Source of the DNA: Branchiibius hedensis | GTDB taxonomy: Bacteria > Actinomycetota > Actinomycetes > Actinomycetales > Dermatophilaceae | DNA: 64,000 nt | Direction: 5' to 3' | Assembly (NCBI RefSeq): GCF_900108585.1 | Contig: NZ_UESZ01000001.1 | Span: forward strand, 2,604,001-2,668,000 | Part shown: piece by piece, positions 20,072 through 38,957 of the stretch | How positions within the stretch are numbered: the first letter of the stretch is position 1 | How the letters are laid out: each line of letters starts with the position of its first letter | Notes under the pieces: generated by a model | What the model was told of the DNA's origin: nothing | Databases searched by the model: none | The model's input: the letters and a program-made list of their open reading frames with translations, nothing else | Position numbers and translations under genes: made by a program

Positions 20072-20095
20072 ATGACCACCACCCCGCGCCGATGA
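20072..20095 (+). CDS. Possible seven-residue leader ORF coupled to the prepilin peptidase
   Basis: ATG 20072 follows a strong GAGGAG at 5 bases spacing and encodes MTTTPRR, ending in a TGA that overlaps the prepilin peptidase ATG (ATGA 20092-20095). The peptidase ATG has no Shine-Dalgarno of its own, so ribosomes that finish the short peptide probably re-initiate. Too short to test by coding statistics. Confidence 0.4.
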   Translation: MTTTPRR

Positions 20096-20778
20096 CCGCC
20101 TCGACGATCGGGGTAGCAGCCGCCGGACTGATCGGCGGCCTCCTCGCCGGCCTCATGCTCACCCCGCGTCTGACGACGCTCGGGCACCGCTATGCCGACG
20201 AGGTCGACGTACGCGTCATGTCCTTCCGCTGGGTGCCCGTGGTGACTGCGCTCGCCGCCGGTCTGGTCGGCGCCGCACAGACCTCCGTGGGTGGCATCGT
20301 GCAGGGCTTGGTGTACGCCGCGTTGACCGTTCCGTTGATCGTGCTGGCCGCCATCGACCTTGACGTTCATCGGCTGCCCGACCGGTGGACCGGTCCCACT
20401 TTCGTAGCCGCCCTGGCCGGGCTGTTGGTCGTGAGCATCGTTCGCCATCAATGGCATTCGCTGCTGATTGCGGTCTGTTGCGCAGCAGGCGTGGCCTTGT
20501 TCTACCTGATCATCGCGCTGATCGCCGGCGGTCAGGGCTTCGGACTCGGCGACGTCAAGCTGTCCCCCACCCTCGGTTTGTTGCTCGGGTTCAACGGGGT
20601 GGCCCAGGCCGTGCTCGGGGTGTTCGCCGGCTTCCTGTCGGGCGCCGTACTGGCGATCATCCTCATCCTGTTCCGCGGCGCCACCCGCAAGACGGCTATC
20701 TCGTTCGGTCCGCACATGATCCTGGGCGCGTTGCTCGTGCTGGCGCTGCCGCTCGTCGGAGCGGTCAGCCAGCACTGA
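20092..20778 (+). CDS. Prepilin peptidase (A24, TadV/PilD-type)
   Basis: 228 residues with about seven membrane helices. The two catalytic aspartates are in AAIDLDVHRLPD and GLGDVKLSPTLG (GxGD motif). It lacks the N-terminal zinc/methylase domain of PilD, but has the full A24 core. It should cut the class III leaders of Flp, the TadE proteins and the two Flp-fusion proteins in this island. The main pilus operon begins 3.7 kb downstream. Confidence 0.92.
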   Translation: MTASTIGVAAAGLIGGLLAGLMLTPRLTTLGHRYADEVDVRVMSFRWVPVVTALAAGLVGAAQTSVGGIVQGLVYAALTVPLIVLAAIDLDVHRLPDRWTGPTFVAALAGLLVVSIVRHQWHSLLIAVCCAAGVALFYLIIALIAGGQGFGLGDVKLSPTLGLLLGFNGVAQAVLGVFAGFLSGAVLAIILILFRGATRKTAISFGPHMILGALLVLALPLVGAVSQH

Positions 20779-20790
20779 GCCGATGGCGAC

Positions 20791-22059
20791 TTACTGGCAG
20801 GCGGCCCAGGTCACGAAGTTCTGACCGTCCCAGTACTGCGCGCCGGTCACCTTGGAGTGCGGCAGTTTCAGGTTGCCGCTGATTCCGACGTCGGCCATGA
20901 ACTTGCCACCGACCTTGGCCTCGATGTCGGTGCCGTCGTCGTGGTAGGTGAGTCGGGTGACCTGACCGTGGTCCTGCGCGCTGTTGAAGAATCCGGACCA
21001 GGTGGCGGGGTTGACGTTGTAGAGGACGTCGTTCGCCGCCTGACGATCCGCCTCGGACTTGACCGGCAGCGTCCACGAATTGATGGTGCTGTCCTCCTTC
21101 CCGAGACCGGTGGTTCCCGTGAACTTCACGCTGGTGAGATTGTGGTTCTTGTCGTACGAACCCTCAATGAGCGCAGTCGCATTCGGATCGAAGGAGGCAC
21201 TCTTCCACGCGGCTGAGGCCGCCGCTGTGGCACCGGCTGACGCGCGTCCGACGATCACGTACGAGCCGTCGGAATTGGTGCGTACGCCGAGCACGGCATC
21301 GACCGACCCACTGGCCGACAGCTGACCGACGCCGAGCGTGTCGTGAGCCGACGCGTCAGCGCTGGCACCGCCGTACACCATGGTCGAGTCGGGCGTGGGC
21401 GGCTGCTTGAGACCCGCCCATTCGGCCACGGTGTCCGAGGCCCAGGTGACTCCGGGGATGTGCGAGGCCCACCCCGTCCCGGTGCTGTTGAGCAGCGCAT
21501 CCCTGCTGTCTTGGTAGATGCTCCAGTTGCGGATGTCTTCGGCCTGGGACTTGCTGTTGACCAGGTAGGTCTGGGTGACACCGCCCTGGAGTCGGGCGTT
21601 GGCGTCCGCGCCGATGTCCCAGCCGTAGCCGGACCCGTTGACGTTCACGCTGGCGTCCCAGCCGACCCCGCCGGCCACCCCCACGGTGCCTCCGGAGGTG
21701 ACGTTGACGGCGTACTGGCCGTTGCTCAGTCGTTCGATCGACACCTTCTTGTTGCCACCGGCACTCACGCCGGCGGCGACCTCGCCGGAGACTTCATAAC
21801 CTTCGGCTGCGGCAGTGCACGGCTCGGTCGGCACGTGCGCATCCGGCGCGGAACTGCCCTCGCCCGCCGAGCAGGACCCCTGACCGCCGGTGAGCACCGT
21901 GCACACCAGATCGGCGACCCGACCCCCGACGTTGCTGTGGGTGATGGCCACCGTGATCGCCCCGACCAGCAGCGCAGCCAGGAAGATCAGCCCGGCCGAC
22001 TCCAGGCTGAGCGCGCCCCGTTCGCGACGGGGTGCCCGCCCGGAGGTCTTGTTGGTCAT
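20791..22059 (-). CDS. Flp-type prepilin fused to a large surface domain (copy A)
   Basis: 422 residues. Charged leader, then RERG/ALSLESAG with Glu at +5 and a hydrophobic helix to residue 42: a class III prepilin signal. The remaining 370 residues are Gly/Ser/Ala/Asn-rich and likely beta-structured. A cysteine pair after the helix (DLVC, GSCSAGE) and a terminal cysteine (AACQ) occur at the same places in the 480-residue protein at 37515. Alignable blocks with that paralog include SNGQYAVNVTSGGTVGVAGG and NLTSVKFTGTTG. Probably a minor pilin or tip protein of the Flp fibre; a role in adhesion is a guess. Divergent from the next two genes. Confidence 0.8.
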   Translation of the reverse strand: MTNKTSGRAPRRERGALSLESAGLIFLAALLVGAITVAITHSNVGGRVADLVCTVLTGGQGSCSAGEGSSAPDAHVPTEPCTAAAEGYEVSGEVAAGVSAGGNKKVSIERLSNGQYAVNVTSGGTVGVAGGVGWDASVNVNGSGYGWDIGADANARLQGGVTQTYLVNSKSQAEDIRNWSIYQDSRDALLNSTGTGWASHIPGVTWASDTVAEWAGLKQPPTPDSTMVYGGASADASAHDTLGVGQLSASGSVDAVLGVRTNSDGSYVIVGRASAGATAAASAAWKSASFDPNATALIEGSYDKNHNLTSVKFTGTTGLGKEDSTINSWTLPVKSEADRQAANDVLYNVNPATWSGFFNSAQDHGQVTRLTYHDDGTDIEAKVGGKFMADVGISGNLKLPHSKVTGAQYWDGQNFVTWAACQ

Positions 22060-24491: not shown

Positions 24492-25280
24492 ATGGATGAC
24501 TGTGTGAGGGCGAGTTCCGTGAACGTGATGCTAGTCGTGCTGAGCGCCGCCGCCGATGCGAGCGCAACGCCGTGGCCGGAAGCAGACAGCGATGTCTGGA
24601 TCCTTCCGTCGGGTCCGGACGAGCTGGCCCAGCACCTGACCGCCCACCCGGCATCGACCGTCCTGGTCCTCACTGCGTCGCGTGAAGGCACCGCGGCTCG
24701 TCTGGCGATCACCGTCGCCGCGGGCGCCCACCCGGCCACCCGATTCGCGCTGCGCGAGGCCTCGGCCAGTGTCCTTGGCCTTGCCGCAGTCGGTCGGCAG
24801 GCGACGCGAATCACCGCGGATCCCGCCGCTGCGTTGCGCTTGGTGGACGCACAACTCGACCGCATCGTGTCGGGAGTCTGGCTGCGCCGGGTGAACAACC
24901 TCAGCGATCCCGCACCGGGTTTGTGGCACCACCTACGGTCGATGCTGCCAACCGCCGGCGGGTTCCTGGTTGTCTTCGGTGCCGACCCGCGGGTCACGAC
25001 CGCGGCGGTGCGCACCCCCACCGAAGCCACCGTGCTGGTCGCCGCGGCCGACCCGAATCCGGTTGCCCAGGCGATCGGTCGATCGGACGTCACCCGTGTC
25101 GCGGCCCCGATCAGCACCAAGAACGCCTACGGCAGCGCCGGTGCCGAATTCGTGGCTCTACCTCCAGCGCCGGTCCTCGCACCGGCACCCGCCGGGTGCC
25201 CGATCTGCCAGCAGGGTTGCGACGGATCGGTCTGCCAGTTCTGTCATGTCGTCATCGTCGGTCAGGAGCGCGCAGCGTGA
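24492..25280 (+). CDS. First gene of the pilus operon: unknown protein with C-terminal zinc ribbon
   Basis: 262 residues, soluble. Residues 10-200 look alpha/beta (VNVMLVVLSAAAD, STVLVLTASREG, GGFLVVFGADP, ATVLVAAADPNP) without Walker motifs; an Ala/Pro linker leads to a tail with CPICQQGC and CQFC, a likely zinc site. The stop overlaps the cpaB GTG. Could be a cytoplasmic regulator or a degenerate TadZ-like protein; I recognise no family. A GTG at 24519 with GAGGGCGAG upstream is an alternative start. Confidence 0.65.
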   Translation: MDDCVRASSVNVMLVVLSAAADASATPWPEADSDVWILPSGPDELAQHLTAHPASTVLVLTASREGTAARLAITVAAGAHPATRFALREASASVLGLAAVGRQATRITADPAAALRLVDAQLDRIVSGVWLRRVNNLSDPAPGLWHHLRSMLPTAGGFLVVFGADPRVTTAAVRTPTEATVLVAAADPNPVAQAIGRSDVTRVAAPISTKNAYGSAGAEFVALPPAPVLAPAPAGCPICQQGCDGSVCQFCHVVIVGQERAA

Positions 25281-26005
25281 ATCCCCGCCAACGGCGAGGT
25301 CTGATCCTCATCGTGATCTCAGCCATCGTGGCCCTGGCCACGTTCTTCGTGGTGACCAGCTACGTGGCGTCCGTGAACAGCCAGGTCGGTGCGAAAGTCA
25401 CCGTTTACCGGGCCACTCAGGCCATCGAGGCATACACCCCGTTGAGTGCCAGCAACCTGCAACCCGTCGAGGTACCGGCCCGCTGGGCAGCGCAATCGTC
25501 CGTGCTGACGTTGTCCCAGCTGCAGGGTCGGCGGATCGGTTTCCGGGTCAACTCCGGCACCACGATCAGCTCGGACATGCTCATCCCCAGCTCCAGCCTC
25601 AACCGCGACGAGCGGGAGGTCGCGATCGACGTCGACCCCGTCACCGGGATCGCCGGTCGGGTCCGGCCCGGGGACCGGGTGGACATCTACGCGGTGTACG
25701 GCGATGTGCCCGGCTTACCGAAATCCGTCAAGGTCCTCACCCGAGACGTGCGGGTGATCTCCATCGCCGGTCAGCAGACGGTGACCAACCAGACCACCAA
25801 CGGCACGAACCAGAGCCAGGTGATCCCCGTGACGCTGGCGTTGCTGCCCAAGGACGCCATGGCGGTCACCTACGCGGCCAACTTCGCCCAGGAGGTCCGG
25901 CTGATCGGCCTGCCGAGCGACGTCGGCACCGACCGCAAGGACGACATCAGCGAGTACGACGCCAGCCAGTTGGGTGGCAAAGCAGTCCCGGAGGCCACCA
26001 AATGA
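25277..26005 (+). CDS. cpaB: Flp pilus assembly protein CpaB/RcpC
   Basis: 242 residues. One N-terminal TM (GLILIVISAIVALATFFVVTSYV), then an SAF domain (VYRATQAIEAYTPLSASNL) and the RcpC half (GIAGRVRPGDRVDIYAVYG). In Gram-negatives it sits near the secretin; in this monoderm-type setting it would face the wall and may help the fibre pass through. GTGA overlap with the gene before, ATGA with the one after. Confidence 0.9.
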   Translation: MNPRQRRGLILIVISAIVALATFFVVTSYVASVNSQVGAKVTVYRATQAIEAYTPLSASNLQPVEVPARWAAQSSVLTLSQLQGRRIGFRVNSGTTISSDMLIPSSSLNRDEREVAIDVDPVTGIAGRVRPGDRVDIYAVYGDVPGLPKSVKVLTRDVRVISIAGQQTVTNQTTNGTNQSQVIPVTLALLPKDAMAVTYAANFAQEVRLIGLPSDVGTDRKDDISEYDASQLGGKAVPEATK

Positions 26006-27540
26006 GCGACGTCGTCATCGGTCTCGGCGACCAGAACCTGGTCGCCGACCTCACCGGAATCCTGCAGGAGATCGACGACGTGTCGATCAAGGCCGTGGCG
26101 ACCACGACCCAGGAACTGATCGACCTCAGCCGCCGGATGCGCCCGGACATCGTCATCGCCTACAGCGAAATCGGCCCCGAGCCGATCACGGAGATCATCC
26201 GGGACATCACCGCGCAACGCCCGGACGTCGCCGTCCTGGAGGTGTCCGACACGCGCACACCGGCCACCGTCGTCAAGGCCATGGAGGCCGGCGCCCGCGG
26301 CGTGATCGCCTACCCGTTCTCCTTCCCGGACGTCTCCAGTCGGCTGGAACTGGCCCAGGAATGGGTCTCCCACATCCGCAAGTTCCAGACCGGGGCCGAG
26401 GCATCCGGTCGCCAACGCGGAACCGTCCTGAGCGTCGTCGGAGCCAAGGGCGGCGTCGGCACGACCACCATCGCGACGCATCTGGCGCAAGACCATGTCC
26501 TGAAGCACCCGGACGCGAAGGTGTGCCTGGTGGATGTCGACGTCGAGAAGGGCGACATCGGCGCCGTACTCGATGTCCGGCAATCGGTGTCGATCGCCGA
26601 CGTCGCGAAGGTCGCAGAAGACCTGGGCACCCAGACGGTGCTGGACGCGGTGATCCTGCACGAAACCGGCATCCATGTGCTGCTCGCACCCGCAGACGTC
26701 CGCGAAGCCGACTTCGTCACCCCGGAAGCGCTGCAAGCGATCGTGGAAATCCTGCGCCGTGAATTCGATGTGGTCATCATCGACGGCGGCGGGCACGTCT
26801 CGCCCAGCCAAGCGGCCAGCGTCGAAGTCGCCGACGAAGTGCTGGTCGTCACCACCGCGGACGTGATGTCGGTGCGCGCGATGCGCCGCCGGATGATGGC
26901 CTGGACGGCCCTGTCGGTCGGCGACGAGTCGACGATGCGGGTGCTGGTCAACAAGGTGGACAAGCAGAGCATCTTCCCCGCCTCCGCTGTCCCGCGGCTG
27001 ACCACCGCACGCGTGACCGAGACCAGGATCCCGATGTCGACCCGACTGCTGGAAGTCGCTCAGAACGAACGCAATCCGCGCGCCATCACCGAGGTCGCCT
27101 GGTGGCGACTGTTGTCGGAGTTGCGCCGCGAGGTGGGCCTGGAGCGACCGTCGGCGATCCCGCCCGCGACAGCCGTGCCGCGCACCCGACGCCGCAAACG
27201 CGAGGCCGGTGGCGTCTCATTGGAGAACGCTGCCCTGATCCCGTTCGTGCTCGTGCTCGCCGCCGTCGCCTGGCAGTTGGCGGTCACTGGCATCACGTTC
27301 ATCTGGGCCGGCCACGCCACCACTGCGGCGGCACGGGCGTACGCGGTGAGCCACCAGACCTCATCCGCCCGATCTGCCGCCGTCGATGCCCTCCCGGGCC
27401 CGTTTGCCTCTGGCCTGGCGGTGGCGACACCCACCAAAGGCTCCATCTCCGTGACCGTGAACATCCCGATGGGCTTCGGCAACGTGGTGGGCCTACCCAC
27501 CACGTTGACGACAAGTCGCTCGGTGGTGGCCGAACCGTGA
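26002..27540 (+). CDS. cpaE: CpaE/TadZ ATPase fused to a TadE-like pseudopilin
   Basis: 512 residues in one uninterrupted frame. Residues 1-125: receiver-like domain (RMRPDIVIAYSEIG, GARGVIAYPF). Residues 140-385: MinD/ParA-type ATPase with deviant Walker A GAKGGVGTTT (K149; second Lys replaced by T154, as in many CpaE) and EFDVVIIDGGG. Residues 386-400 are basic and Pro-rich. Then EAGGVSLENA and a hydrophobic helix to about 432, followed by about 80 residues of TadE character. E408 is at +5 if cleavage falls between G403 and G404. CpaE normally ends near residue 400, so this is a fusion. ATGA overlaps cpaB upstream; GTGA overlaps the separate tadE downstream. Confidence 0.85.
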   Translation: MSDVVIGLGDQNLVADLTGILQEIDDVSIKAVATTTQELIDLSRRMRPDIVIAYSEIGPEPITEIIRDITAQRPDVAVLEVSDTRTPATVVKAMEAGARGVIAYPFSFPDVSSRLELAQEWVSHIRKFQTGAEASGRQRGTVLSVVGAKGGVGTTTIATHLAQDHVLKHPDAKVCLVDVDVEKGDIGAVLDVRQSVSIADVAKVAEDLGTQTVLDAVILHETGIHVLLAPADVREADFVTPEALQAIVEILRREFDVVIIDGGGHVSPSQAASVEVADEVLVVTTADVMSVRAMRRRMMAWTALSVGDESTMRVLVNKVDKQSIFPASAVPRLTTARVTETRIPMSTRLLEVAQNERNPRAITEVAWWRLLSELRREVGLERPSAIPPATAVPRTRRRKREAGGVSLENAALIPFVLVLAAVAWQLAVTGITFIWAGHATTAAARAYAVSHQTSSARSAAVDALPGPFASGLAVATPTKGSISVTVNIPMGFGNVVGLPTTLTTSRSVVAEP

Positions 27541-27887
27541 GCAGGTCCGCCCGCCACCCAGAGCGGGGTACGGCGGCCGTGGAGTTGGCGGGCCTGATCC
27601 CGATCCTGCTGTTGGCTGCCCTGGTCGCCCTCCAATTCGGGATCGTCGGATGGACAACCCTGTCCGCCGGCTGGGCCGCCCGGGACGCCGCCCGGGCCGC
27701 GACCCTGGGCAAGGACCCCGCGCAAGCGGCCCGAGGAGCGCTGCCCGGCAACCTGTCCGCCGAGTCCATCACCGGTGGCGCGACGGGCGACGCCCAGCGC
27801 TACACCGTGCAGGTGCACATCCCCAGCCTGATTCTGATCGACCTGGGGTCGGTCTCCCGAACCGTCGAAATGCCGGACATCAAATGA
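27537..27887 (+). CDS. TadE-like minor pilin
   Basis: 116 residues. Leader SRSARHPERG, then TAAVELAGL with Glu at +5, and a hydrophobic helix (IPILLLAALVALQFGIVGW): a class III signal. The short C-terminal part resembles the end of the preceding fusion protein, including a common D-A-A-R-A-A motif after the helix. Likely a minor pilin that primes Flp assembly. GTG 27537 overlaps the fusion stop; its own stop overlaps cpaF. Confidence 0.88.
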   Translation: MSRSARHPERGTAAVELAGLIPILLLAALVALQFGIVGWTTLSAGWAARDAARAATLGKDPAQAARGALPGNLSAESITGGATGDAQRYTVQVHIPSLILIDLGSVSRTVEMPDIK

Positions 27888-29188
27888 AACGCAACTACGC
27901 CTCCTTCGCCGGTGCTCTACCGGTCGGCGCGACCCGCGAAGACGACTCTCTGGTAGGCCGATTCAGGGCTCTCCTCCTGGAAGAAGTCGACCTCAACGCG
28001 CTGAGCAAACTGGATGCCGGTCAACGTCGCGCTCGCCTGGAGCGGGTGATCGCTCACCTCGTCTCGCGCGAGGGGGTGATCCTCAGCGCCAGCGAACGAA
28101 ACCAACTGATCCGCCGGGTTGTCGACGAGGCGGTCGGTCTCGGTGTCCTCGAACCGATCCTGGCCGACCCCTCCATCAGCGAGATCATGATCAACGGGCA
28201 CGAAACGATCTTCGTCGAGCGCAACGGCCGCCTGGAGCGATGGCCGGCACCCTTCAGCAGCGAGGAACAGTTGCTGCAGACGATCGACCGCATCGTGTCG
28301 ACGGTCAACCGCCGCGTGGACGAGTCGAGCCCGATGGCGGACGCCCGGCTGCCCGCTGACACCCGCCTGCCGCGCGGTGCTCGCGTCAACGTCGTCCTGC
28401 CACCGCTGGCGCTCAACGGCCCGACCGTCACCATCCGGCTGTTCCCCGTGTCGCTGCCGCTCAGCCGCCTGATCGAGATGGGCACCCTCGATCAACGCAC
28501 CGCGCTCCTGCTGCAGACCTGCGTCGAAACCCGCCTGAACGTCGTGGTTTCCGGCGGCACCGGCTCCGGCAAAACCACCCTGCTCAACGCGCTGTCGACG
28601 TTCATCGACCCCCGCGAGCGCATCATCACCATCGAGGACGCTGCCGAACTGAGCCTGAACCAACCGCACACCATCCGTCTGGAGACCCGGCCCGCGAACG
28701 TGGAGGGCCGCGGGGCGGTGTCGGTGCGTGACCTCGTGCGCAACTCCCTGCGCATGCGTCCCGATCGGATCATCGTCGGCGAATGCCGCGGCGGAGAAGC
28801 GCTCGACATGCTCCAGGCGATGAACACCGGCCACGAGGGTTCGCTCACAACGGTGCACGCCAACTCCCCCGACGATGCCCTGTCCCGGCTGGAGACCCTG
28901 GCGTCGATGAGCGACGTCGAAGTGCCCTTCCACGCGTTGCGCGACCAGGTGAACTCGGCCATCGACGTGATCGTCCAGTTGACGCGCGCCCCGGACGGCG
29001 CCCGCCGCGTGACCAACGTTTCCTTCGTGGCCAGCCGCCGCCAGGAACCGTTCGAACTGATCGAACTGATGACCTGGCAGCCCGCCGACGGACACTCCCC
29101 CGGCCGGTTCGCCGCCACTGCGCTGCCGGAGCAGCTGCGGCGCCGGTTCATCGCCGGCGGCGCCGACCCCCGGTGGTCGACGCCGTGA
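27884..29188 (+). CDS. cpaF: CpaF/TadA pilus assembly ATPase
   Basis: 434-residue hexameric secretion ATPase powering Flp extension (and retraction in some systems). The N-terminal domain includes EPILADPSISEIMINGHETI; Walker A is SGGTGSGKTTLLNAL; ASP and Walker B regions are IITIEDAAELSL and RPDRIIVGECRGGEALDML; the HIS box is in GSLTTVHANSP. Both motifs are intact, so it should be active. ATGA overlap with the tadE gene. Confidence 0.95.
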   Translation: MKRNYASFAGALPVGATREDDSLVGRFRALLLEEVDLNALSKLDAGQRRARLERVIAHLVSREGVILSASERNQLIRRVVDEAVGLGVLEPILADPSISEIMINGHETIFVERNGRLERWPAPFSSEEQLLQTIDRIVSTVNRRVDESSPMADARLPADTRLPRGARVNVVLPPLALNGPTVTIRLFPVSLPLSRLIEMGTLDQRTALLLQTCVETRLNVVVSGGTGSGKTTLLNALSTFIDPRERIITIEDAAELSLNQPHTIRLETRPANVEGRGAVSVRDLVRNSLRMRPDRIIVGECRGGEALDMLQAMNTGHEGSLTTVHANSPDDALSRLETLASMSDVEVPFHALRDQVNSAIDVIVQLTRAPDGARRVTNVSFVASRRQEPFELIELMTWQPADGHSPGRFAATALPEQLRRRFIAGGADPRWSTP

Positions 29189-30111
29189 GCATTCTGCTGA
29201 TCCTGCTGGGGTCCCTGGCTGCCATCGTGCTGTTCTGCCTCGGCATCCGTGAGTTCGGCCTGCACCTGTCGGATCGCCGGCGGGCAGTGATCAGCGCCGA
29301 GGCGGTGACGAGCGCAGACCACGCGGCGGGGCTGATCGACGACGCGGACCGCAGACTGCGGCAGACCCGGCTCGGCCGCTGGCTGGAGAGTGAACTCGAC
29401 CTCGCCGGCATCGATCGGAAGCCGATCGTCATCCTGTTGTCCGGTGTCCTGGTCGCGCTGGTGGCCACGTGGGTGGTCTGGGACTTCCTGGCTCCGGCCC
29501 TTGCCGTCTTCGGTCTCGTCGTCGGTGTCTTCGGCGTCCGCTGGTACCTGCGCCGGGGCCAAGCACGACGCCGTGAGGCCTTCGTCGCCCAACTACCAGA
29601 TCTCGCGCGGGTGCTCGCGAACGCCAGCTACGCCGGCCTCTCGCTGCCCACGGCAATCGGTATCGCCGGCGACGAACTGTCCGAGCCTGCTCGCACCGAA
29701 TTGTCCCGTGTCGCAACACGATTGAAATTCGGAGCCCCGCTGCCAACTGCGCTCGAGGGCCTGCGTGCACGGGTGGGCTCCCGCGAAGCGAACGTCCTGA
29801 TCTCCACTCTGGTCGTCGCCTCGCGAAGCGGCGGCTCCCTGGTGACCGCCTTGCGCAACATCGCCGACACGTTGGAACAGCGCAAGGAGACCCGGCGTGA
29901 GGTGCGTACGACGCTGGCGCAGTCGGTCGCCACCTCCTACATGGTCATCGTGCTCGGCGCGGGATCACTGCTCCTGCTGAACTCCATCGAGCCGGGGACC
30001 GTCCAGAAGATGACGACCTCCCTGCTCGGCCAGGTCGCGCTCATCGTCGCTGGGTTGCTGTTCGGTGGCGGCTACCTGGTGATTCGCCGGATGACCAGGA
30101 TCGAATCGTGA
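29185..30111 (+). CDS. tadB: TadB inner-membrane platform protein
   Basis: 308 residues, T2SSF domain. N-terminal TM, a cytoplasmic loop, two TMs around 90-125, the cytoplasmic F domain (LPDLARVLANASYAGLSLPTAI, RSGGSLVTALRNIADTLEQR), then two C-terminal TMs. Forms the platform with TadC. GTG 29185 overlaps the cpaF stop (GTGA), which decides the start. Confidence 0.92.
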   Translation: MSILLILLGSLAAIVLFCLGIREFGLHLSDRRRAVISAEAVTSADHAAGLIDDADRRLRQTRLGRWLESELDLAGIDRKPIVILLSGVLVALVATWVVWDFLAPALAVFGLVVGVFGVRWYLRRGQARRREAFVAQLPDLARVLANASYAGLSLPTAIGIAGDELSEPARTELSRVATRLKFGAPLPTALEGLRARVGSREANVLISTLVVASRSGGSLVTALRNIADTLEQRKETRREVRTTLAQSVATSYMVIVLGAGSLLLLNSIEPGTVQKMTTSLLGQVALIVAGLLFGGGYLVIRRMTRIES

Positions 30112-31019
30112 ACTGGGCCGTCGGGGCCGTGCCGGGGCTGGTGGCCATGATCGCCGTCCTGACCTTTGCCCGCGGCTACCGGATGTTGCGCTCAGATCCC
30201 GCACTGGACCTCGGCGCCGAAGAGATCGCCCTGTTGCGCGGCGCCGAACAGCAACGCTCCAAAGGCCAGAGCGCGCTGGCTTCGCTCTCCTACCGCTTCG
30301 TGCCGCTGTTGCGGCGGCTCCTTCCGGACAGCGCGCTGCGGTGGCTACAGCGCCAGGTCGACACAGCGGGACGCCCAGACTGCCTCGACGTCGACTCGAT
30401 GCTGGCCAAGACCGCGCAGTGGTCCATCATCCTGAGCCCGGCATTCGTCATCTTCCTGCTCAAGGGCAACCTGCCCTTCCTCGTCCTGTGCGTGCTGGCC
30501 GTGACCATCCTGCCGCTCGCCCGCCTGTCGGGGCTGGCCCGCAAGCGCCGTGAACGCATCGACGCTGATCTGCCCGACTTCCTCGACGTGCTGGCCGTGA
30601 CGGTGACGGCCGGCATCGGATTCCGCGCTGCCCTCGCCACGGTCGCCGACCGGTTCGGCGGCCCGCTCGGTGAGGAGATCCAGCTCACCCTGCGCCAGAT
30701 CGACAACGGAGCGACCGTGCGCTCCGCGTTCGTCGGGTTGCGGGCACGCGCCAACTCCGAGGCCGTCGAGGACTTCGTCACGGCCTACCTGCAAGCCGAG
30801 GAACTCGGCGCGCCCCTCGTGGACACCTTGACCCACATCGCCGACGACATGCGCAAGGCGCACGCCCAGCGGCTGCGGCAGAAGGCAGCTCGGGTGGAGC
30901 CGCGGGTCACGTTGGTGGTGACGATGGTCATGGTGCCGGGCATCCTGGTGATCTTCCTGGTCGGCCTGTATTTCGCCGTCGGCGGCGACCAACTCAAGGG
31001 GTTGTTCGGGGGTGCCTAG
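30108..31019 (+). CDS. tadC: TadC inner-membrane platform protein
   Basis: 303 residues, T2SSF family. Membrane segments near 5-20, 103-142 and at the C-terminus (MVMVPGILVIFLVGLYFAV), with the cytoplasmic F domain LPDFLDVLAVTVTAGIGFRAAL and AEELGAPLVDTLTHIADDMR. Partner of TadB. The start overlaps tadB by four bases; the kinase gene begins eight bases before its stop. Confidence 0.92.
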   Translation: MNWAVGAVPGLVAMIAVLTFARGYRMLRSDPALDLGAEEIALLRGAEQQRSKGQSALASLSYRFVPLLRRLLPDSALRWLQRQVDTAGRPDCLDVDSMLAKTAQWSIILSPAFVIFLLKGNLPFLVLCVLAVTILPLARLSGLARKRRERIDADLPDFLDVLAVTVTAGIGFRAALATVADRFGGPLGEEIQLTLRQIDNGATVRSAFVGLRARANSEAVEDFVTAYLQAEELGAPLVDTLTHIADDMRKAHAQRLRQKAARVEPRVTLVVTMVMVPGILVIFLVGLYFAVGGDQLKGLFGGA

Positions 31020-32190
31020 TGCAGCGCCGACGATCAACCGGGTCGCCCTCAAAGTCACCCAGTCAGCGTTCGTCATTCGCCTGATCGCCATCGTCGCCGC
31101 ACTGATGGCCTCGTTCGGCCACCCGCTGGACGTCTCGGCGCTCGCCTGTTGCGTGATCGCCGGTCTCACCAGCTACCTCGGGTTGACCCGTCCCGACCTG
31201 CTGGTCGCGGTCACCCGACACCCGTCGATCGCCTTGGTCGATGTCCTGCTCATTGCTTCGGCAACGGCCCTCGGCGGTCCGATCAGCCCGTTCGTGCTCG
31301 CCGTTCTGACCACGGCCGTGCTGCTGGGTCTGTGGGTCGACCTCGTCTCCGGGCTGATCGTCATCGCCACCCTGACCAGCATCTACGCGATCGGGATCTA
31401 CGGCCGCGGCCTCACCGGTAACGACCACGCCATGACCATCGTGGTCGTCCCGTTCGTCTACCTGATGCTGTGGTACCTCGCGTTCACGCTGAAACGAGCG
31501 CTGGACCAACAGGACCGCAACGAACGCACGCTGCGCGATGCCATCGCCACCGCCGCCGCATCCGAGGAGCGCGCAAGCGTGGCGCGGCAATTGCACGACT
31601 CCGTCGCCAAGACGGTCCAGGGCATCGTCATGTCCGCCAGCGCCTTGCCGGTCTATCTGGAACGAGACCCCGGGCGCGCTGTCGACATTGCCTCCGATGT
31701 GCAGGACATGGCAGGGACTGCCGTCCACGAAATCCGGCAGATCATGGGCAACCTGCGCTCGCGCACCTCTGAGCAACCGTTGGGTGAGGCCGCCCTTGAC
31801 GTGATCACGACCTGGCAGCTGCGAACCGGGCGGACTGCGCACATCGAGATTGCACCTGAGGTGGACGCCCACGACGAGGCGATCCGCTACGAGCTGTTGG
31901 TCATCCTGCAGGAGGCATTGGACAACGTGCACAAACACGCGGGAAGCACTGCCGAAGCCAGCGTCAAACTCGCCATCGAGGGCCAGGACTGCCTGCTGGT
32001 CGTCGCGGACAACGGCCGCGGAGCCGACCCGGTCCAAGTGGACCGCGCCGCGAGCGCTGGACACGTGGGTATCAAGGGCCTCCACGAGCGAATGGCCCGC
32101 ATCGGTGGGCGGGTCCTGTGGGACAGCGCACCGGGTGAGGGCACGACCCTGACCTGCACCGTCCACTCGAGGGGGTTGCTGGAGGTATGA
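31012..32190 (+). CDS. NarL-type sensor histidine kinase of the pilus operon
   Basis: 392 residues. About five to six N-terminal membrane helices (residues 17-160) with almost no extracellular sensor loop, then HisKA_3 with H195 in SVARQLHDSVAKTVQ, and an HATPase_c domain (EALDNVHKHAG, VVADNGRGAD, GLHERMARIGG). Probably senses something in the membrane. GTG 31012 overlaps tadC by eight bases, so it is made together with the platform; its own stop overlaps the response regulator (ATGA). Confidence 0.92.
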   Translation: MPSAAPTINRVALKVTQSAFVIRLIAIVAALMASFGHPLDVSALACCVIAGLTSYLGLTRPDLLVAVTRHPSIALVDVLLIASATALGGPISPFVLAVLTTAVLLGLWVDLVSGLIVIATLTSIYAIGIYGRGLTGNDHAMTIVVVPFVYLMLWYLAFTLKRALDQQDRNERTLRDAIATAAASEERASVARQLHDSVAKTVQGIVMSASALPVYLERDPGRAVDIASDVQDMAGTAVHEIRQIMGNLRSRTSEQPLGEAALDVITTWQLRTGRTAHIEIAPEVDAHDEAIRYELLVILQEALDNVHKHAGSTAEASVKLAIEGQDCLLVVADNGRGADPVQVDRAASAGHVGIKGLHERMARIGGRVLWDSAPGEGTTLTCTVHSRGLLEV

Positions 32191-32897
32191 CGACGGAGCA
32201 GGGCAGCCTCGGCGTGTTGATCGTCGACGACAGCCCCGTGGTGCGGACGGGTCTTCGCGCACTCATCGGGACCGAGCCGGACCTTGCGGTGGTCGGTGAG
32301 GCCAGCAACGGCGACGAGGCCATCCGGATGGCGGCGGCCACCCGACCGGACGTCGTGCTACTCGACGTCCGGATGCCACGGCGGGACGGCCTGTCGGTCG
32401 TGGCCGAACTGGCTGGCAGCAGCGCCGTCCTCATGCTGACCTTCACCGACGACCCGAGCGTGATCAGCCAGGCGCTGAGCGCGGGGGCGGTCGGGTATCT
32501 CGTGCACGGCACCTTCGACGCCTCCGCCTTGTCCCACATGATCCGGGGAGCAGCTGCGGGCGTGGGTGCGTTCTCGGGCCCCGCTCTGGCCGCGCTGCGC
32601 ACCACGGCCCAGGTCGAGGCGCCATCCGGGCTGCGTGACGGCGGGCATTCACTGAGTCCACGGCAGGTCGAGGTGATGGACCTGGTCGCCGAGGGTCGGT
32701 CGAACTCCGATATCGCGCGGACCTTGTTCGTCGCCGAGAAAACGGTGAAGAACCACATCAACCAGATCTTCGCCTCGCTGTGCGTCTCCTCCCGCGCGGA
32801 AGCGATCGCCGCGTGGGTCGGCCTGGGGAAACCGGCAGCGAACTTGGGCCCGTCGGTGGGTCCTGGGACCCTGCGACGGGCTCCGCTCGATCCGTAA
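32187..32897 (+). CDS. LuxR/NarL-family response regulator of the pilus operon
   Basis: 236 residues. Receiver domain with D14/D15 and phospho-acceptor D60 in VLLDVRMPRRDG, and T85 as the switch threonine; the normally invariant lysine (YLxK) is histidine (H107). The C-terminal LuxR HTH is clear (LSPRQVEVMDLVAEGRSNSDIA). Pairs with the upstream kinase; the flp promoter directly downstream is the obvious target but is not proven. Confidence 0.92.
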   Translation: MTTEQGSLGVLIVDDSPVVRTGLRALIGTEPDLAVVGEASNGDEAIRMAAATRPDVVLLDVRMPRRDGLSVVAELAGSSAVLMLTFTDDPSVISQALSAGAVGYLVHGTFDASALSHMIRGAAAGVGAFSGPALAALRTTAQVEAPSGLRDGGHSLSPRQVEVMDLVAEGRSNSDIARTLFVAEKTVKNHINQIFASLCVSSRAEAIAAWVGLGKPAANLGPSVGPGTLRRAPLDP

Positions 32898-32988: not shown

Positions 32989-33201
32989 ATGCAGAACTAC
33001 TTCGCCGCCCGCATGATGGTCACGCTGCATGTGCTGAAGGCTCGTTACGCCGACCGTGAGCGCGGCGCCTCCGCTCTGGAATACGTCGGCATGGTGATCC
33101 TGGCCGCGCTGCTGGTGGTGGCTGTCATCACCGCCATCAACCCCGCCAACATCAAGGGCACCGTGACGGAGAAGGTGAACGAAATCCTCACCGCACAGTG
33201 A
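32989..33201 (+). CDS. flp: Flp major pilin
   Basis: 70 residues. Leader of 25 residues ending DRERG, then ASALEYVGM with Glu at +5 and Tyr at +6 (the Flp signature) and a single hydrophobic helix; the mature pilin is about 45 residues. AAGGAG lies upstream of ATG 32989. Flanked by hairpins on both sides, consistent with differential abundance of this mRNA. Both Flp-fusion proteins share this N-terminus. Confidence 0.94.
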   Translation: MQNYFAARMMVTLHVLKARYADRERGASALEYVGMVILAALLVVAVITAINPANIKGTVTEKVNEILTAQ

Positions 33202-33221
33202 GTGCATCCCGTCGCACAGGT

Positions 33222-33250
33222 GCGGGGAGCGGCCAGCGGTCGCTCCCCGC
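33222..33250 (+). terminator. Strong hairpin downstream of flp
   Basis: Perfect ten-base stem GCGGGGAGCG/CGCTCCCCGC with a nine-base loop (33232-33240), 20 bases after the flp stop and no T-run. Likely a partial terminator or 3' stabiliser that lets flp be expressed above the TadG-like gene. Confidence 0.6.
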
Positions 33251-33284
33251 TCCTGCACGTCACCAACCAAGAGCTAGGACCCTC

Positions 33285-33923
33285 ATGCGCAACCAGGAAC
33301 GCGGCCAGGCCGTGACCGCCCTCGTGGTTTGCGTGGCGCTTCTCCTGTTGGGCGTCGGGTTCCTGGCGTACGTGAAGTACGACAAGGCAACCGACCAGGC
33401 CAGTGGCCTGCAGACCGCCGCCGACGCGACGGCCCTCGCGGGTGCTCAACAGATCGCCAAGGACGCACCAGCGGCCATCGTCGATGCCCTGCTCAACGGT
33501 CGCAGCCTGTCCGGAATGGGCCAGGGAGCGGCCGCCGATTTCGCCACCCGCAACGACGCCCGTGTCATTGCCTACCGCTACTTCCCCGATTCCGACCGGG
33601 TCGAAGTCACGGTGCAAAGCGCGCACACCCTGGAGTCGGGCCAGCTGGAAACCCGATCTTCGGTAGCTCGCACCGGCATGCGCCTGGGACCGTGCCACCT
33701 GCCGGATGCGCCCACCCCCACACCGACGCCCACCCCTACACCGACGCCGACCACCTCTTCCGCGACGCCCTCACCCACCACGTCAACGCCCCCACCGGAT
33801 GTCGACTCGGTCGCCCGTTGCGGCGACGTCGAGATCCCGATCACCTTCCCGGGCACCGGCGGACCAGCCCACGCACAACCCGGCCACCTGACGTTCCACT
33901 TCGAGCCGCGACTGGATAACTGA
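33285..33923 (+). CDS. TadG-like pilus assembly protein with Pro/Thr-rich spacer
   Basis: 212 residues. The N-terminus NQERGQAVTALVVCVALLLLGV is the Tad (TadG N-terminal) signature: the RG is present but Glu at +5 is absent. A conserved DQASGLQTAADATALAGAQ follows. A PT repeat (PTPTPTPTPTPT) and Thr/Pro-rich spacer (about 143-170) join a short C-terminal domain of about 40 residues. Probably wall-spanning. ATG 33285 is favoured by AGGA; a GTG at 33198 overlapping the flp stop would add 29 residues. Confidence 0.8.
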   Translation: MRNQERGQAVTALVVCVALLLLGVGFLAYVKYDKATDQASGLQTAADATALAGAQQIAKDAPAAIVDALLNGRSLSGMGQGAAADFATRNDARVIAYRYFPDSDRVEVTVQSAHTLESGQLETRSSVARTGMRLGPCHLPDAPTPTPTPTPTPTPTTSSATPSPTTSTPPPDVDSVARCGDVEIPITFPGTGGPAHAQPGHLTFHFEPRLDN

Positions 33924-34023: not shown

Positions 34024-35124
34024 GTGACCACCCATAGCCTGCGGAAGCGCGCCACCACCGCGCTGGCCGTCGTGGCATCGGCCGGTGCCATCGCTGGGGG
34101 CCTGCCGCCCGTCTCGGCCAGCGCCACCGACGACACCACGATTCCGGTGCTGGGGCAGACAGTCAGCAGAAGCACGATTGATCCGAAGGCGCCGGAGGCA
34201 GTCATCACCGTGCACGGCGTGCGCCGAATTCAAGGTGGGACGGCGGTCTACTTCTCGGTCGGATTCCCGGCCGGCACCGCGAATGCGTCGGCGCTCAATC
34301 TGTCGCTGGCTCTTACCGACCAGTTCCGCAAGTACGCCGCGTCCGGGCGGACGTCGGTGCGCGACGACTTGGGGATCGTCGCAGCGGTCGATCAGCGCGG
34401 CAAGAAGGTCTACAGCGGACTGTTGGCCAGCGATCAGCGCTGCGTGTGTTCACACGGCAGCGTGCAGGATCACGTCAAGAGCAATGCCGCGGGCACCGCC
34501 TTCGTGATGTACGTCGTGTTGCCGCAGCTGCCTGCATCGGTGCAGAACCTCGATGTGATCATCGGCGACAAGATCATCCCGGCCGTCCCCGTCCAGGATC
34601 AGGCGATGACGCCTACCGTCTCCGCCGACCAGCCGATCGCACTGGGCACCGGCTGGCCGGCCATCGACCAGAGCGCCCTGGCGACGGTCAGTGACCCGAA
34701 CGCATCGATCTATCCGCTCACCCAGCAGATAACAGCCGGTCAACTGACCACTCGCACCAAAACGTCAACGAAGTCGATCGATATCGCCGCCGACGTCCTG
34801 TTCGCCAGCGGTAGCGCCACGCTGACTGCGGCCGCTCAGGCCACGCTCGCCAAGGCCGGTGCCAGCCTGAAATCGGCCGGCGCCACCGGAACGGTTGACG
34901 TGATCGGATACACCGACTCTGATCTGTCCGAGGCCTTCAACCTCGATCTGTCCAAGCGTCGAGCCGCCGCCGTCGTCGCTGCGCTGAAGCCGCTGGTCGG
35001 AGCGTCCATCACCCTGGTGCCCCAGGGCAAGGGCGAAGCCGACCCGGTGGCCAGCAACGACTCCCCTGAGGGCAAGGCGCTCAACCGGCGAGTATCCCTG
35101 TCCTTCAAGCAGGTCGGCCAATGA
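34024..35124 (+). CDS. Secreted OmpA-domain protein with CxC domain (pair 1)
   Basis: 366 residues. Signal peptide 1-33 (ending SASA), an N-terminal domain of about 180 residues (VITVHGVRRIQGGTAVYFSV, CVCSHGS, LPQLPASVQNLDVIIG), then a C-terminal OmpA/MotB domain with IAADVLFASGSATLTA, GYTDSD and NLDLSKRRAAAVV, whose Asp and Arg bind diaminopimelate in peptidoglycan. Would sit in the wall near the pilus. Its stop overlaps the next gene (ATGA). Confidence 0.85.
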   Translation: MTTHSLRKRATTALAVVASAGAIAGGLPPVSASATDDTTIPVLGQTVSRSTIDPKAPEAVITVHGVRRIQGGTAVYFSVGFPAGTANASALNLSLALTDQFRKYAASGRTSVRDDLGIVAAVDQRGKKVYSGLLASDQRCVCSHGSVQDHVKSNAAGTAFVMYVVLPQLPASVQNLDVIIGDKIIPAVPVQDQAMTPTVSADQPIALGTGWPAIDQSALATVSDPNASIYPLTQQITAGQLTTRTKTSTKSIDIAADVLFASGSATLTAAAQATLAKAGASLKSAGATGTVDVIGYTDSDLSEAFNLDLSKRRAAAVVAALKPLVGASITLVPQGKGEADPVASNDSPEGKALNRRVSLSFKQVGQ

Positions 35125-35690
35125 AGCGACGCAACGCCGCCGTCACGATCGCGGCCCTGAGCACCGTGGTCGCGCTGAGCGCCTGCACCGGCAGCGACAA
35201 CCCGCAGCCGTCGTCCGTGTCGGCCACCAACACATCCCACGGCGGCTCCAGCTCGGCGTCACCGACCGCGTCGGTGCCACCGGACCTCCTGAACTACAAG
35301 ATCGACCAGGTCGCGGCCACGGCCAAGAGCACCACGTTTTTGAGCAACCGAGCCTCGGCGACGTTGTCGGTGGCCTCCGTCAGGGCTACGCCGGACACCA
35401 CGGTCGTCACGTTCTGGGTCACTACTGCCACGCCGTACGCCTCCCCCATCTCCGCCAGCCGCCCGGAGACCTGGCCCAAGCTGGTAGACGCCGGCACGGG
35501 GAACAGCTACGGGGTGAACATCTTCACGGGCAGTCAACCGGGTGCCTACTGCGTCTGCACGGACGTCAACATGATTGAACCCACCCGGCGAGTGCTGACG
35601 GCCCAGTACCCGCCGTTGCCGACGGGCCTGTCCCAGGTCACCTTCCGGCTGACCGGCTTCCCGGACCTGAAGATCCCACTCACCCGCTGA
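35121..35690 (+). CDS. Lipoprotein with CxC domain (pair 1)
   Basis: 189 residues. Lipobox LSAC (Cys near 22), Ser/Thr-rich spacer to about 50, then a domain that lines up with the N-terminal domain of the OmpA protein before it: LSVASVRATPDTTVVTFWV, AYCVCTDVN, and PPLPTGLSQVTFRLTGFPDL. Membrane-anchored partner of that protein; function unknown. ATGA overlap with the OmpA gene. Confidence 0.8.
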   Translation: MKRRNAAVTIAALSTVVALSACTGSDNPQPSSVSATNTSHGGSSSASPTASVPPDLLNYKIDQVAATAKSTTFLSNRASATLSVASVRATPDTTVVTFWVTTATPYASPISASRPETWPKLVDAGTGNSYGVNIFTGSQPGAYCVCTDVNMIEPTRRVLTAQYPPLPTGLSQVTFRLTGFPDLKIPLTR

Positions 35691-35750
35691 CCTCGGCACC
35701 GGCCAGCGCGGATCGCTAGCGGGCCCCACGGGGCAGGAAGGACGGCACGC

Positions 35751-36836
35751 GTGAGGACTCACCCACGCATCGTCGCTACCGGTTTGGCGGTGCTCGCCAC
35801 GTCGTGGGGGGCCATCGGGCCGGCTACCGCCGCGGACAACACCACCGTTCCCGTACTGGGTCAGGTTCAGGCTGGATATGGATCTTCCGGCACGACTCCG
35901 CAAGGAGTCGTGACCGTCCACGGCGTACGCCGGATCCCGGGCGGAACCGCCGTGTATTTCTCCATCGGCTTCCCTGCAGGTACGCCCAATGCTGGCGCCT
36001 TCAACCTGGCGACCATCCTGGCCACCTCAAGCACCGATATGTCTCCAGACCGGTCGGGAGCCAACGCCCTGGGGGAGGCGGGTCTGATGGACTCGGCCGG
36101 AAAGAAGATGTACGTCACCTTGATGACCCCCGACAAGGCCTGTGTGTGCTCCCAAGCGTCTCTGGTCTCCCACGTGAGCGAGGACAACGCGGGTAAGGCC
36201 TACGCGTTGTACTACGTGGTTCCGACGCTGCCCTCGTCCGTGACGACCGTCGACGTGAACATCGCCGGAACCATCATTCCCGACATCCCCGTCGAAGACG
36301 GCGCGATGACCCCGACGCTGCCCGCAGGAAACCCGATCGTGGTCGGCACGGGATGGCCCGCTGTCGACGAGGCCGCCCTGGCCAAGGTGACCAACACCGG
36401 CCAGTCGATCCTGCCGCTGACCCAAGCGGTCGGCGACCTCAGCGGTCAGATCACCGATCGCACCAAGTCCGACAGCAAGTCAGTCGACATCGCTGCCGAT
36501 GTCCTGTTCGCCGTCGACAGCGCCGAGTTGAGTCCCGCGGCCAACGCCACCCTGGCCAAAGCGGCCGCCGCTCTCAAAGCCGACCATGTCACCGGCACGG
36601 TCAATGTGATCGGCTACACCGACTCCGACAACACCGAGGCGCACAACCTGGACCTGTCCAAACGCCGAGCGCAGGCGGTGGTCGCCGCGCTGCAACCGAT
36701 GGTCCCCCCTGGCGTCAAACTCATCCCCCAAGGCATGGGCGAGGCCGACCCGGTGGCGAGCAACGACTTCCCCGAGGGCAAAGCCCTCAACCGGCGAGTG
36801 TCACTGTCCTTCGCGAATCCAGGAGGAGCCCAGTGA
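35751..36836 (+). CDS. Secreted OmpA-domain protein with CxC domain (pair 2)
   Basis: 361 residues, a clear paralog of the 34024 protein over its whole length. Signal peptide ending TAA, then VVTVHGVRRIPGGTAVYFSI, ACVCSQAS, VPTLPSSVTTVDVNIAG, and an OmpA domain with VLFAVDSAELSPAA, GYTDSDNTEAHNLDLSKRRA. Acts in the cell wall by inference. GTGA overlap with the lipoprotein after it. Confidence 0.85.
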   Translation: MRTHPRIVATGLAVLATSWGAIGPATAADNTTVPVLGQVQAGYGSSGTTPQGVVTVHGVRRIPGGTAVYFSIGFPAGTPNAGAFNLATILATSSTDMSPDRSGANALGEAGLMDSAGKKMYVTLMTPDKACVCSQASLVSHVSEDNAGKAYALYYVVPTLPSSVTTVDVNIAGTIIPDIPVEDGAMTPTLPAGNPIVVGTGWPAVDEAALAKVTNTGQSILPLTQAVGDLSGQITDRTKSDSKSVDIAADVLFAVDSAELSPAANATLAKAAAALKADHVTGTVNVIGYTDSDNTEAHNLDLSKRRAQAVVAALQPMVPPGVKLIPQGMGEADPVASNDFPEGKALNRRVSLSFANPGGAQ

Positions 36837-37420
36837 AACGACCACTCGCCCTGGCCAGCACCGGCGCCATCCTCACCGCTTCACTCATCCTGACCGGATG
36901 CACCGGCAGCGACAACAACCAGACCACCACCAACGCGACCTCGCCGTCGGCCTCGAGCGGCAGCGGAACCTCCACGCCCACGGCCACCGCCACGATGCCC
37001 GCCGACATGCTGAACTTCCAGAACAAGTCCGTTGCCCAAGCCACGAGCAGTAGCTTCCTGACCAGCGGCCGGCCCGCGACCATCTTCGTCTCCTCGGTCA
37101 AGGCCAGCACTCATTCCTCAGTGCTGACCTTCTGGTTCACGGCTCCTACCTCGGGCGACTCCCCGTTGAAGTTGAATGTGCCCCAGACCTGGCCGCAGCT
37201 GGTCGACACCGCGGGGAAGAAGGGGTACATCGTCACCACCTTCCCCTCCTTCCCCTTCGTGGGCGGCCGGACACCTGAATGTGCCTGCACCCCGAACATC
37301 GTCGTCTACCCCCAACCCAGGGTCCTGACCGCTGCCTACCCAGCTCTACCAGCCAACCTGACCGAAATCACGCTGCGCCTCAAGGGATTTGCCGACCTGA
37401 AGGTTCCGATCACCCGCTGA
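36833..37420 (+). CDS. Lipoprotein with CxC domain (pair 2)
   Basis: 195 residues. Lipobox LTGC (Cys near 23), a TGSDN start shared with the first pair's lipoprotein, Ser/Thr spacer, then the same domain: ATIFVSSVKASTHSSVLTFWF, ECACTPNI, YPALPANLTEITLRLKGFADLKVPITR spread over its last 130 residues. Strong AGGAGG before GTG 36833. Clear paralog of the 35121 protein. Confidence 0.82.
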   Translation: MKRPLALASTGAILTASLILTGCTGSDNNQTTTNATSPSASSGSGTSTPTATATMPADMLNFQNKSVAQATSSSFLTSGRPATIFVSSVKASTHSSVLTFWFTAPTSGDSPLKLNVPQTWPQLVDTAGKKGYIVTTFPSFPFVGGRTPECACTPNIVVYPQPRVLTAAYPALPANLTEITLRLKGFADLKVPITR

Positions 37421-37514: not shown

Positions 37515-38957
37515 GTGAGCAGCAGGAGCGCAGGCGAGCGAGGGGCATCCGGCCTGGAATACATCGGCGCGATCATGCTCGCTGCCGCGCTGGTCGTCGC
37601 GATCGTCTACGCCGTCGTCGGCAACGGCCGGGTCGAAAGCGCTGTGTGCCAAGCCGTCAACAGCATCCTGCAGAACGACGGCTCCTGCGGACCCGCCTCG
37701 CCCCCGGGCAAGACCGACAAGGACTTCGAGCCGGACAAGTGCAAGTACAACGAGAAGGGCGAGTCCTACAACAGCAAGGTCAAGATCTTCTTCATCGAGA
37801 TCGGCGACAACGCCGGCCTGGTCGAGACGGTCTACAGCGACGGCTCGGTCAAACTGACAGCGACCGATGGCGCCAGCGTGGGCGCAACCGGTGGAGTCGG
37901 CGCTGATGTGACCTTCGGCAAACTCGAGGCCGGCGCCAAGGTCAACTTCGGTGCGGGACTGCAGTTCGACTACGGCTCGACCTGGAGTTTCGATGGCCCG
38001 GACGGGAAGAAGAACGCCGACGAGTTCCGCAAAGGCCTGGAGGACTACCTGGCCGATCAGGCGGCCATCCAGAACAGCCCGACCTACTCCATCTACTGTG
38101 CGTTCGGCGGCTGCGCCGACCCCCCGCGGGACCCGGACTCACAGATGACCAGCATCAAGTTGACCGGTGATGTTTCGGGGACGCTGGGGCTCAGCCTGAC
38201 CAACAAGACCGGCCCCGACGACAACCGGACCGGTGAGTCCATCCCGGCCGCACAGGTCGTCGGCAAGATCAGCGCCAACTCGCAATGGGCGGTCAACACC
38301 GACAACGTGACGGGCGACACGACGTACACGACCTCATTGGGCATCGACGCCAGCGTGAGCTCCCAACTGTGGACGGCGACCTGGGGCACCAAGGGCGCCT
38401 CGGCCGTCACGATGGCGATCACCAAGAACAAGGACGGCAAGGTCGTGGGCCTGAAGTTCGTGAGCACCACCGAAGGTGGCCAGGCCGGCGGATCCGCGGC
38501 TTCGGGCAGCACCCAGGCCGGCAAGAACTCCGGCGGCGGCAGCATCCTGACCAGTACCGACGCGACGACGGCCACGGTGATCACCACTGACCTGTCGATC
38601 GACGCCAACGACACAGCCGCACAGCAGACCATCGCCAACTGGCTGGGCGGCGACACGAACTACTCGTGGGCCGGCGCGATCGCGGCCGGCGGGATCGACC
38701 CGTCGTACGCCGATCCGAAAGACCCGTTCCAGCAACTCATGCATGACCGGTCGAAGGTCAGCGCCGTCACCTATGACAACGTGAAGGACACGACCGCGTT
38801 CGGGCTGAACGTGAAGGTGGGCGTTGCGTTAGGGTTCGACTTCAGCTTGTCCGACTCTGAATCACAGGCGACGGCGGCGTCCTACCTCGGTGCGCCCGAC
38901 GCATCGGGCAACCGCAAACCGGTCCCGTACTCCGACTGCGTCAAAGGGAGCAACTGA
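37515..38957 (+). CDS. Flp-type prepilin fused to a large surface domain (copy B)
   Basis: 480 residues. Leader SSRSAGERG, then ASGLEYIGA with Glu +5/Tyr +6 and a helix to about 40: almost the Flp pilin sequence. Residues 50-480 form a Gly/Asp/Thr-rich domain with repeated beta-like stretches (SVGATGGVGADVTF, TTYTTSLGIDASVSSQLW, VVGLKFVSTTEGG). The cysteine pair after the helix (SAVC, DGSC) and a near-terminal cysteine (YSDC) match copy A. Its stop overlaps the next lipoprotein by one base (TGATG). Probably a minor pilin or fibre-tip protein. Confidence 0.82.
   Translation: MSSRSAGERGASGLEYIGAIMLAAALVVAIVYAVVGNGRVESAVCQAVNSILQNDGSCGPASPPGKTDKDFEPDKCKYNEKGESYNSKVKIFFIEIGDNAGLVETVYSDGSVKLTATDGASVGATGGVGADVTFGKLEAGAKVNFGAGLQFDYGSTWSFDGPDGKKNADEFRKGLEDYLADQAAIQNSPTYSIYCAFGGCADPPRDPDSQMTSIKLTGDVSGTLGLSLTNKTGPDDNRTGESIPAAQVVGKISANSQWAVNTDNVTGDTTYTTSLGIDASVSSQLWTATWGTKGASAVTMAITKNKDGKVVGLKFVSTTEGGQAGGSAASGSTQAGKNSGGGSILTSTDATTATVITTDLSIDANDTAAQQTIANWLGGDTNYSWAGAIAAGGIDPSYADPKDPFQQLMHDRSKVSAVTYDNVKDTTAFGLNVKVGVALGFDFSLSDSESQATAASYLGAPDASGNRKPVPYSDCVKGSN

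Follow-up and report, generated by a model that had tools for sequence, protein, structure and literature searches.

A Tad pilus locus of the actinomycete Branchiibius hedensis contains a gene, tadZ::tadE, in which the localisation ATPase TadZ/CpaE and a TadE pseudopilin are encoded as one protein. The locus lies in a window of 64,000 nucleotides (contig NZ_UESZ01000001.1, positions 2,604,001 to 2,668,000 of the forward strand), the whole stretch of DNA that was analysed. The two parts meet at a class III prepilin cleavage site, and on the evidence of the sequences we think it probable that prepilin peptidase cuts the fusion after G403, which would release a 403-residue ATPase and a 109-residue TadE. 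The fusion is a common architecture in the phylum and not peculiar to this genome, since 76 distinct examples, that of the window included, are spread across Actinomycetota. As a preliminary description of the window had it, the frame is continuous through the ATPase, a linker and TadE; translation of 26002-27540 on the forward strand gives a single open frame of 512 residues with one stop, at its end. Its parts are as follows.

26002..27540, forward strand: tadZ::tadE fusion gene, 512 amino acids (open frame; 75 other distinct fused homologues)
26002..26400, forward strand: CpaE-type pseudo-receiver (atypical receiver), approximately residues 1-133 (Pfam Response_reg; profile matches)
26401..27141, forward strand: TadZ ATPase domain, approximately residues 134-380 (AAA_31; 3ea0 profile match; Foldseek; predicted local distance difference test, pLDDT)
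27142..27210, forward strand: linker, Pro-rich then basic, residues 381-403, ending RTRRRKREAG, a prepilin-type leader end (pLDDT; relatives)
27208..27213, forward strand: predicted prepilin peptidase cut, G403/G404 (Gly at -1, Glu or Asp at +5, and Asp, Glu or Gln at -3, each in 76/76)
27211..27540, forward strand: TadE pseudopilin module, residues 404-512, 109 amino acids (identity to tadE2; helix and strands; PF07811 in relatives)

Residues 1-380 are a complete TadZ/CpaE, consisting of a pseudo-receiver and a deviant ParA/MinD domain, which bears out the original domain assignment. Pfam places Response_reg at residues 12-114 and AAA_31 (ParA/MinD-type) at residues 141-292. At the phospho-acceptor Asp position of the pseudo-receiver the sequence has Tyr, and profile searches match the family to the solved CpaE receiver domains 4dad and 4dn6. 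The best family-profile match overall is 3ea0 (1.8e-26); this structure and 3fkq are also the top Foldseek matches of the AlphaFold2 model, where pLDDT in the ATPase domain is mostly 80-94. The Walker A motif reads KGGVGTT, with Thr in place of the usual P-loop Lys, which is consistent with the atypical Walker A mentioned for TadZ (PMC6668835), and both K149 and T154 are invariant across 15 aligned proteins. The fusion thus resembles known TadZ/CpaE, the ParA/MinD-like ATPase of Tad pilus localisation, in its pseudo-receiver, its deviant Walker A ATPase and its position in a Tad operon, and differs from the solved relatives 3fkq and 3ea0 by the C-terminal linker and the whole of TadE.

The C-terminal module was likewise correctly recognised as TadE: it shares 38% identity with tadE2, the separate gene downstream, and while PF07811 (TadE) gives no match on the window's own module, it does match the module in 9 of 15 fused relatives. 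The predicted fold is that of a small pilin, with a long helix (residues 412-450) followed by strands. pLDDT falls below 50 at residues 383-407, so that the junction is predicted to be disordered and hence accessible. The proposed cut position can be read directly from the translation as G403|GVSL, immediately before the hydrophobic segment and with E408 at +5, and the same site is kept in relatives. The defining features of class III are Gly at -1 and Glu5 (PMC4471445), and the module has both, together with the hydrophobic helix. In its G|xxxxE site, single hydrophobic helix and small strand-rich head it is like the TadE/TadF pseudopilins processed by TadV, whose leaders are 6-26 amino acids long (PMC4471445), whereas here a 403-residue ATPase stands in the leader's place. 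The fused copy is therefore no ordinary TadE prepilin; it is a TadE module within a precursor of a new kind.

A survey of CpaE homologues for C-terminal TadE fusions had been suggested, and ours covered 58 related genomes and a collection of 84,980 species, and included order- and phylum-wide searches. Two of the 58 related genomes, from other genera and families, carry full-length fusions with 42% and 39% identity; a third carries one with about 35%, and in a fourth the fusion runs off a contig end. Across the phylum, fusions occur in Dermatophilaceae, Intrasporangiaceae, Cellulomonadaceae, Promicromonosporaceae, Nocardioidaceae, Thermomonosporaceae, Nocardiopsidaceae, Streptomycetaceae, Kineosporiaceae and Egibacteraceae, the genera including Nocardioides, Actinomadura, Streptomyces and Kineosporia, plus a metagenome-assembled genome (MAG) of Solirubrobacterales. 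One of the fused species, Streptomyces albidoflavus (L112), has laboratory strains. The general operon order is cpaB - tadZ::tadE - tadE2 - cpaF - tadB - tadC, and tadE2 went undetected by BLAST in some fused lineages. The preliminary description had worried about a lost stop, yet several of the fusions come from single-contig genomes, and 75 other distinct fusions in independent assemblies exclude a sequencing or assembly artefact, be it a lost stop or a frameshift, to the point where its chance is practically nil. No relatives were found in viral contigs, nor on plasmids at 1e-15. In the Solirubrobacterales MAG (L064:2575-4770) the fusion has some 150 extra residues C-terminal to TadE.

Support for cleavage comes from the cut site itself. 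Gly occupies -1 in 76/76 fusions, +5 is Glu in 71 and Asp in the other 5, -3 is acidic in 72 and Gln in 4, and the 15 residues N-terminal to the site have a mean net charge of +3.5, all in linkers that range from 18 to 236 residues in length. The Gly at -1 is moreover one of only four invariant columns among 27 aligned TadE modules. Because site detection accepted only G or A together with E, D or Q, a lost site could in principle have been hidden; however, all open reading frames (ORFs) with the ATPase and a long tail were inspected, and none with a fused hydrophobic segment was found to have lost the site. Only two long-tailed ATPases are without it (L137 and L138), and both have TadE as a separate gene. 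That the site is kept in every fusion while the surrounding linker varies, and recurs in separately encoded TadE, is strong support for cleavage. Class III leaders are cut by prepilin peptidases on the cytoplasmic side of the membrane, immediately N-terminal to the hydrophobic helix (PMC10191384), which is where the cytoplasmic ATPase would lie.

These observations also bear on the possibility that the protein stays uncut, with TadZ tethered to the pilus machine through the TadE segment as its membrane anchor, and with TadE2 as the real minor pilin. A transmembrane tether could plausibly be useful to a positioning ATPase, and tadE2 is directly downstream. However, neither the Gly at -1 nor the Glu at +5 is needed for anchoring, and we see Gly in 76/76 and Glu or Asp in 76/76; the extracellular TadE head is conserved as well, and split relatives do without a tether. 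We consider a permanent anchor rather unlikely.

The split relatives provide a useful comparison. Separate TadZ and TadE genes were found in 39 relatives, mainly Streptomyces and Nocardiopsis but also Cutibacterium modestum. They agree with the fusions in gene order, family and cleavage site, and differ in that a stop codon, and in most cases also a new start preceded by a Shine-Dalgarno (SD) sequence, lies between the genes. The split TadE is the next gene and often has a short leader (for example MRTYRDDDRG|QVAVE), usually with its own ribosome-binding site. In many Streptomyces, tadZ and tadE are in frame with one stop between them, GGAGGNCGC-TGA-NNN-ATG, and the SD lies within the end of tadZ. 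Such single-TGA junctions occur in the split loci L053, L055, L062, L063, L072, L076, L107 and others, where stop-codon readthrough could still yield some fused product. A DRGSxGLRRR-like segment is also conserved in Streptomyces, both in fused linkers (for example L058, L061, L065 and L097) and C-terminally in split TadZ (L055, L062 and L107); its presence in both forms suggests a possible role of the basic tail for the ATPase.

Could TadE instead be made from an internal start codon, the fusion being a mere overlap and the fused product minor? The window does have a GTG 11 codons upstream of G403, and starts with a 5-base SD are present in 10/76 fusions against 4.8 expected from codon-shuffled controls, a count inside the shuffled range of 0-12. 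The window's GTG, however, has no SD. Starts with an SD of 4 or more bases precede TadE in 28/39 split genes but in only 20/76 fusions, against 15.9 (range 9-24) in shuffled controls, and 20/76 fusions have no ATG, GTG or TTG at all within 45 codons upstream of the site. With SD-preceded starts close to chance and these sequences lacking any start, internal initiation is ruled out as the general way in which TadE is made; as an account of the fusion we hold it to be very improbable. Free TadE would thus have to come from proteolysis.

We examined the history of the fusion with a quick maximum-likelihood tree built from the ATPase portion, with 12 unfused TadZ as the outgroup root, and with an unrooted version; L125, whose contig ends inside the linker, was left out of the rooted tree. 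The search was short, some branches are long and sampling began from a fused query. In the rooted tree, fused and split sequences together form one clade (support 100, a starred branch) whose early branches are fused. At least eight changes between the fused and split states are needed within it, or six when only the starred branches are relied upon. The pattern agrees with a single old fusion that later split repeatedly, with some re-fusions possible. The repeated splits in nature show that the machine can function with the two proteins separate, and that the fusion is dispensable.

Such a history raises the question of whether the fusion has any purpose. It may be cut as proposed and yet serve only translational convenience: an early loss of a stop would have become fixed, with a result equal to two coupled genes. 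The well supported branches force at least six interchanges, and a single in-frame stop (TGA-NNN-ATG) separates the two states in many Streptomyces, both of which favour this view. Against it stands the fact that, easy as reversal is, the fusion has been present since the base of the clade and has persisted in several families and classes. We rate a fusion of no special function as a serious possibility, a little short of an even chance. This explanation concerns purpose and not cleavage, and is compatible with cleavage after G403.

How the fusion enters the membrane, that it is cut, by which enzyme, and what advantage it brings are all inferred in the following account. The TadZ/CpaE ATPase would be synthesised first. 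The hydrophobic segment of TadE would then enter the membrane in the normal prepilin orientation, leaving the ATPase in the cytoplasm and TadE outside, and a TadV-type prepilin peptidase would cleave after G403 at the cytoplasmic face. This would set free two products: the ATPase, 403 residues long and ending in a basic, disordered tail, and a 109-residue TadE pseudopilin that carries Glu5 and would join the Tad pilus or the pilus base; the ATPase would thereby act, in effect, as a giant leader peptide. The conserved class III site, the split TadE with the same site, a nearby peptidase and the conserved operon order all point this way. Equal synthesis, co-localisation, or retention of TadZ at the membrane until processing are reasonable candidate benefits. 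More tentatively, cleavage of this old, phylum-wide precursor might be a control step, in which the positioning ATPase is held at the membrane site of pilin insertion and both are freed together, coupling placement 1:1 to pilin supply; we think this possible, though doubtful.

Three points weigh against the ATPase as a leader. First, 403 residues precede the cut, where known leaders have 6-26 (PMC4471445). Second, no leader near 400 residues was found described in the literature searched, and the peptidase may accordingly be slow on such a substrate or fail to cut it. Third, repeated splitting within the clade makes the fusion dispensable, so that a role in delivery is not essential.

The remaining genes of the locus are as follows.

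20092..20778, forward strand: tadV-like A24 prepilin peptidase, the candidate cutter (PF01478, 7.7e-11)
25277..26005, forward strand: cpaB/rcpC (TIGR03177 above cutoff)
27537..27887, forward strand: tadE2, separate TadE minor pilin (PF07811, 8.3e-9)
27884..29188, forward strand: cpaF/tadA motor ATPase (T2SSE, 1.8e-64)
29185..30111, forward strand: tadB platform protein (T2SSF)
30108..31019, forward strand: tadC platform protein (T2SSF)
32989..33201, forward strand: Flp-type major pilin, G|ASALEY (weak Flp_Fap match; motif read from sequence)
33198..33923, forward strand: TadG-like protein (PF13400, 3e-4, just under cutoff)

The peptidase carries both catalytic-type Asp motifs (AAID and GLGD) and is one of two A24 peptidases in the genome, the second being on another contig. 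The separate downstream tadE of the preliminary description is tadE2, the start of which overlaps the end of the fusion gene by GTGA. Within the Tad cluster (31012-32897) are also a HisKA_3 kinase and a LuxR-type response regulator, and homologues of this histidine kinase and regulator often come after tadC in relatives. Upstream of cpaB, 24492-25280 encodes a 262-residue protein with no family above cutoff, present in 11/46 fused-locus relatives. Two further proteins of 422 and 480 residues (20791-22059, reverse strand, and 37515-38957, forward strand) are distant relatives of one another (32% over 164 residues); each has, after a prepilin-like N-terminal segment (G|ALSLE and G|ASGLEY), a large domain rich in Gly, Ser and Thr that matches nothing in Pfam, and they are possible candidates for giant pilins or for passengers tethered to the pilus. 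A tandemly duplicated pair comprising an OmpA-domain protein and a small putative lipoprotein lies immediately downstream of the Tad genes (34024-37420), the OmpA-domain copies (34024-35124 and 35751-36836) being 56% identical.

Automatic domain databases probably list TadZ-TadE architectures. The parts and the pathway are known; the arrangement itself we did not find described, in agreement with the earlier statement that no case was known. Our literature search, mostly of non-subscription full texts, found no mention of a TadZ-TadE fusion, and none is made in PMC2947987, PMC4322843, PMC5696575, PMC6668835, PMC8467076, PMC3244431, PMC10191384, PMC4471445 or PMC3316620. Other fusions are on record in type IV filament systems, namely TadB-TadC in the tad-2 locus of Micrococcus luteus (PMC4322843) and PulL as a PilM-PilN fusion (PMC10191384). 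These likewise join neighbouring parts of a machine; no prepilin cut site is described at their junctions in these papers, however, whereas in tadZ::tadE one of the partners is a prepilin.

We know of no larger prepilin leader, and a 403-residue ATPase would be the largest by far. Annotation is affected directly, in that tools which seek prepilins only at N termini will miss fused TadE subunits. The coexistence of fused and split relatives, even within Streptomyces, supplies natural matched pairs for testing. If the fusion is indeed cut, this would be a leader with a job of its own, and would show a possible way in which the ATPase that places a pilus is tied to the pilin it serves.
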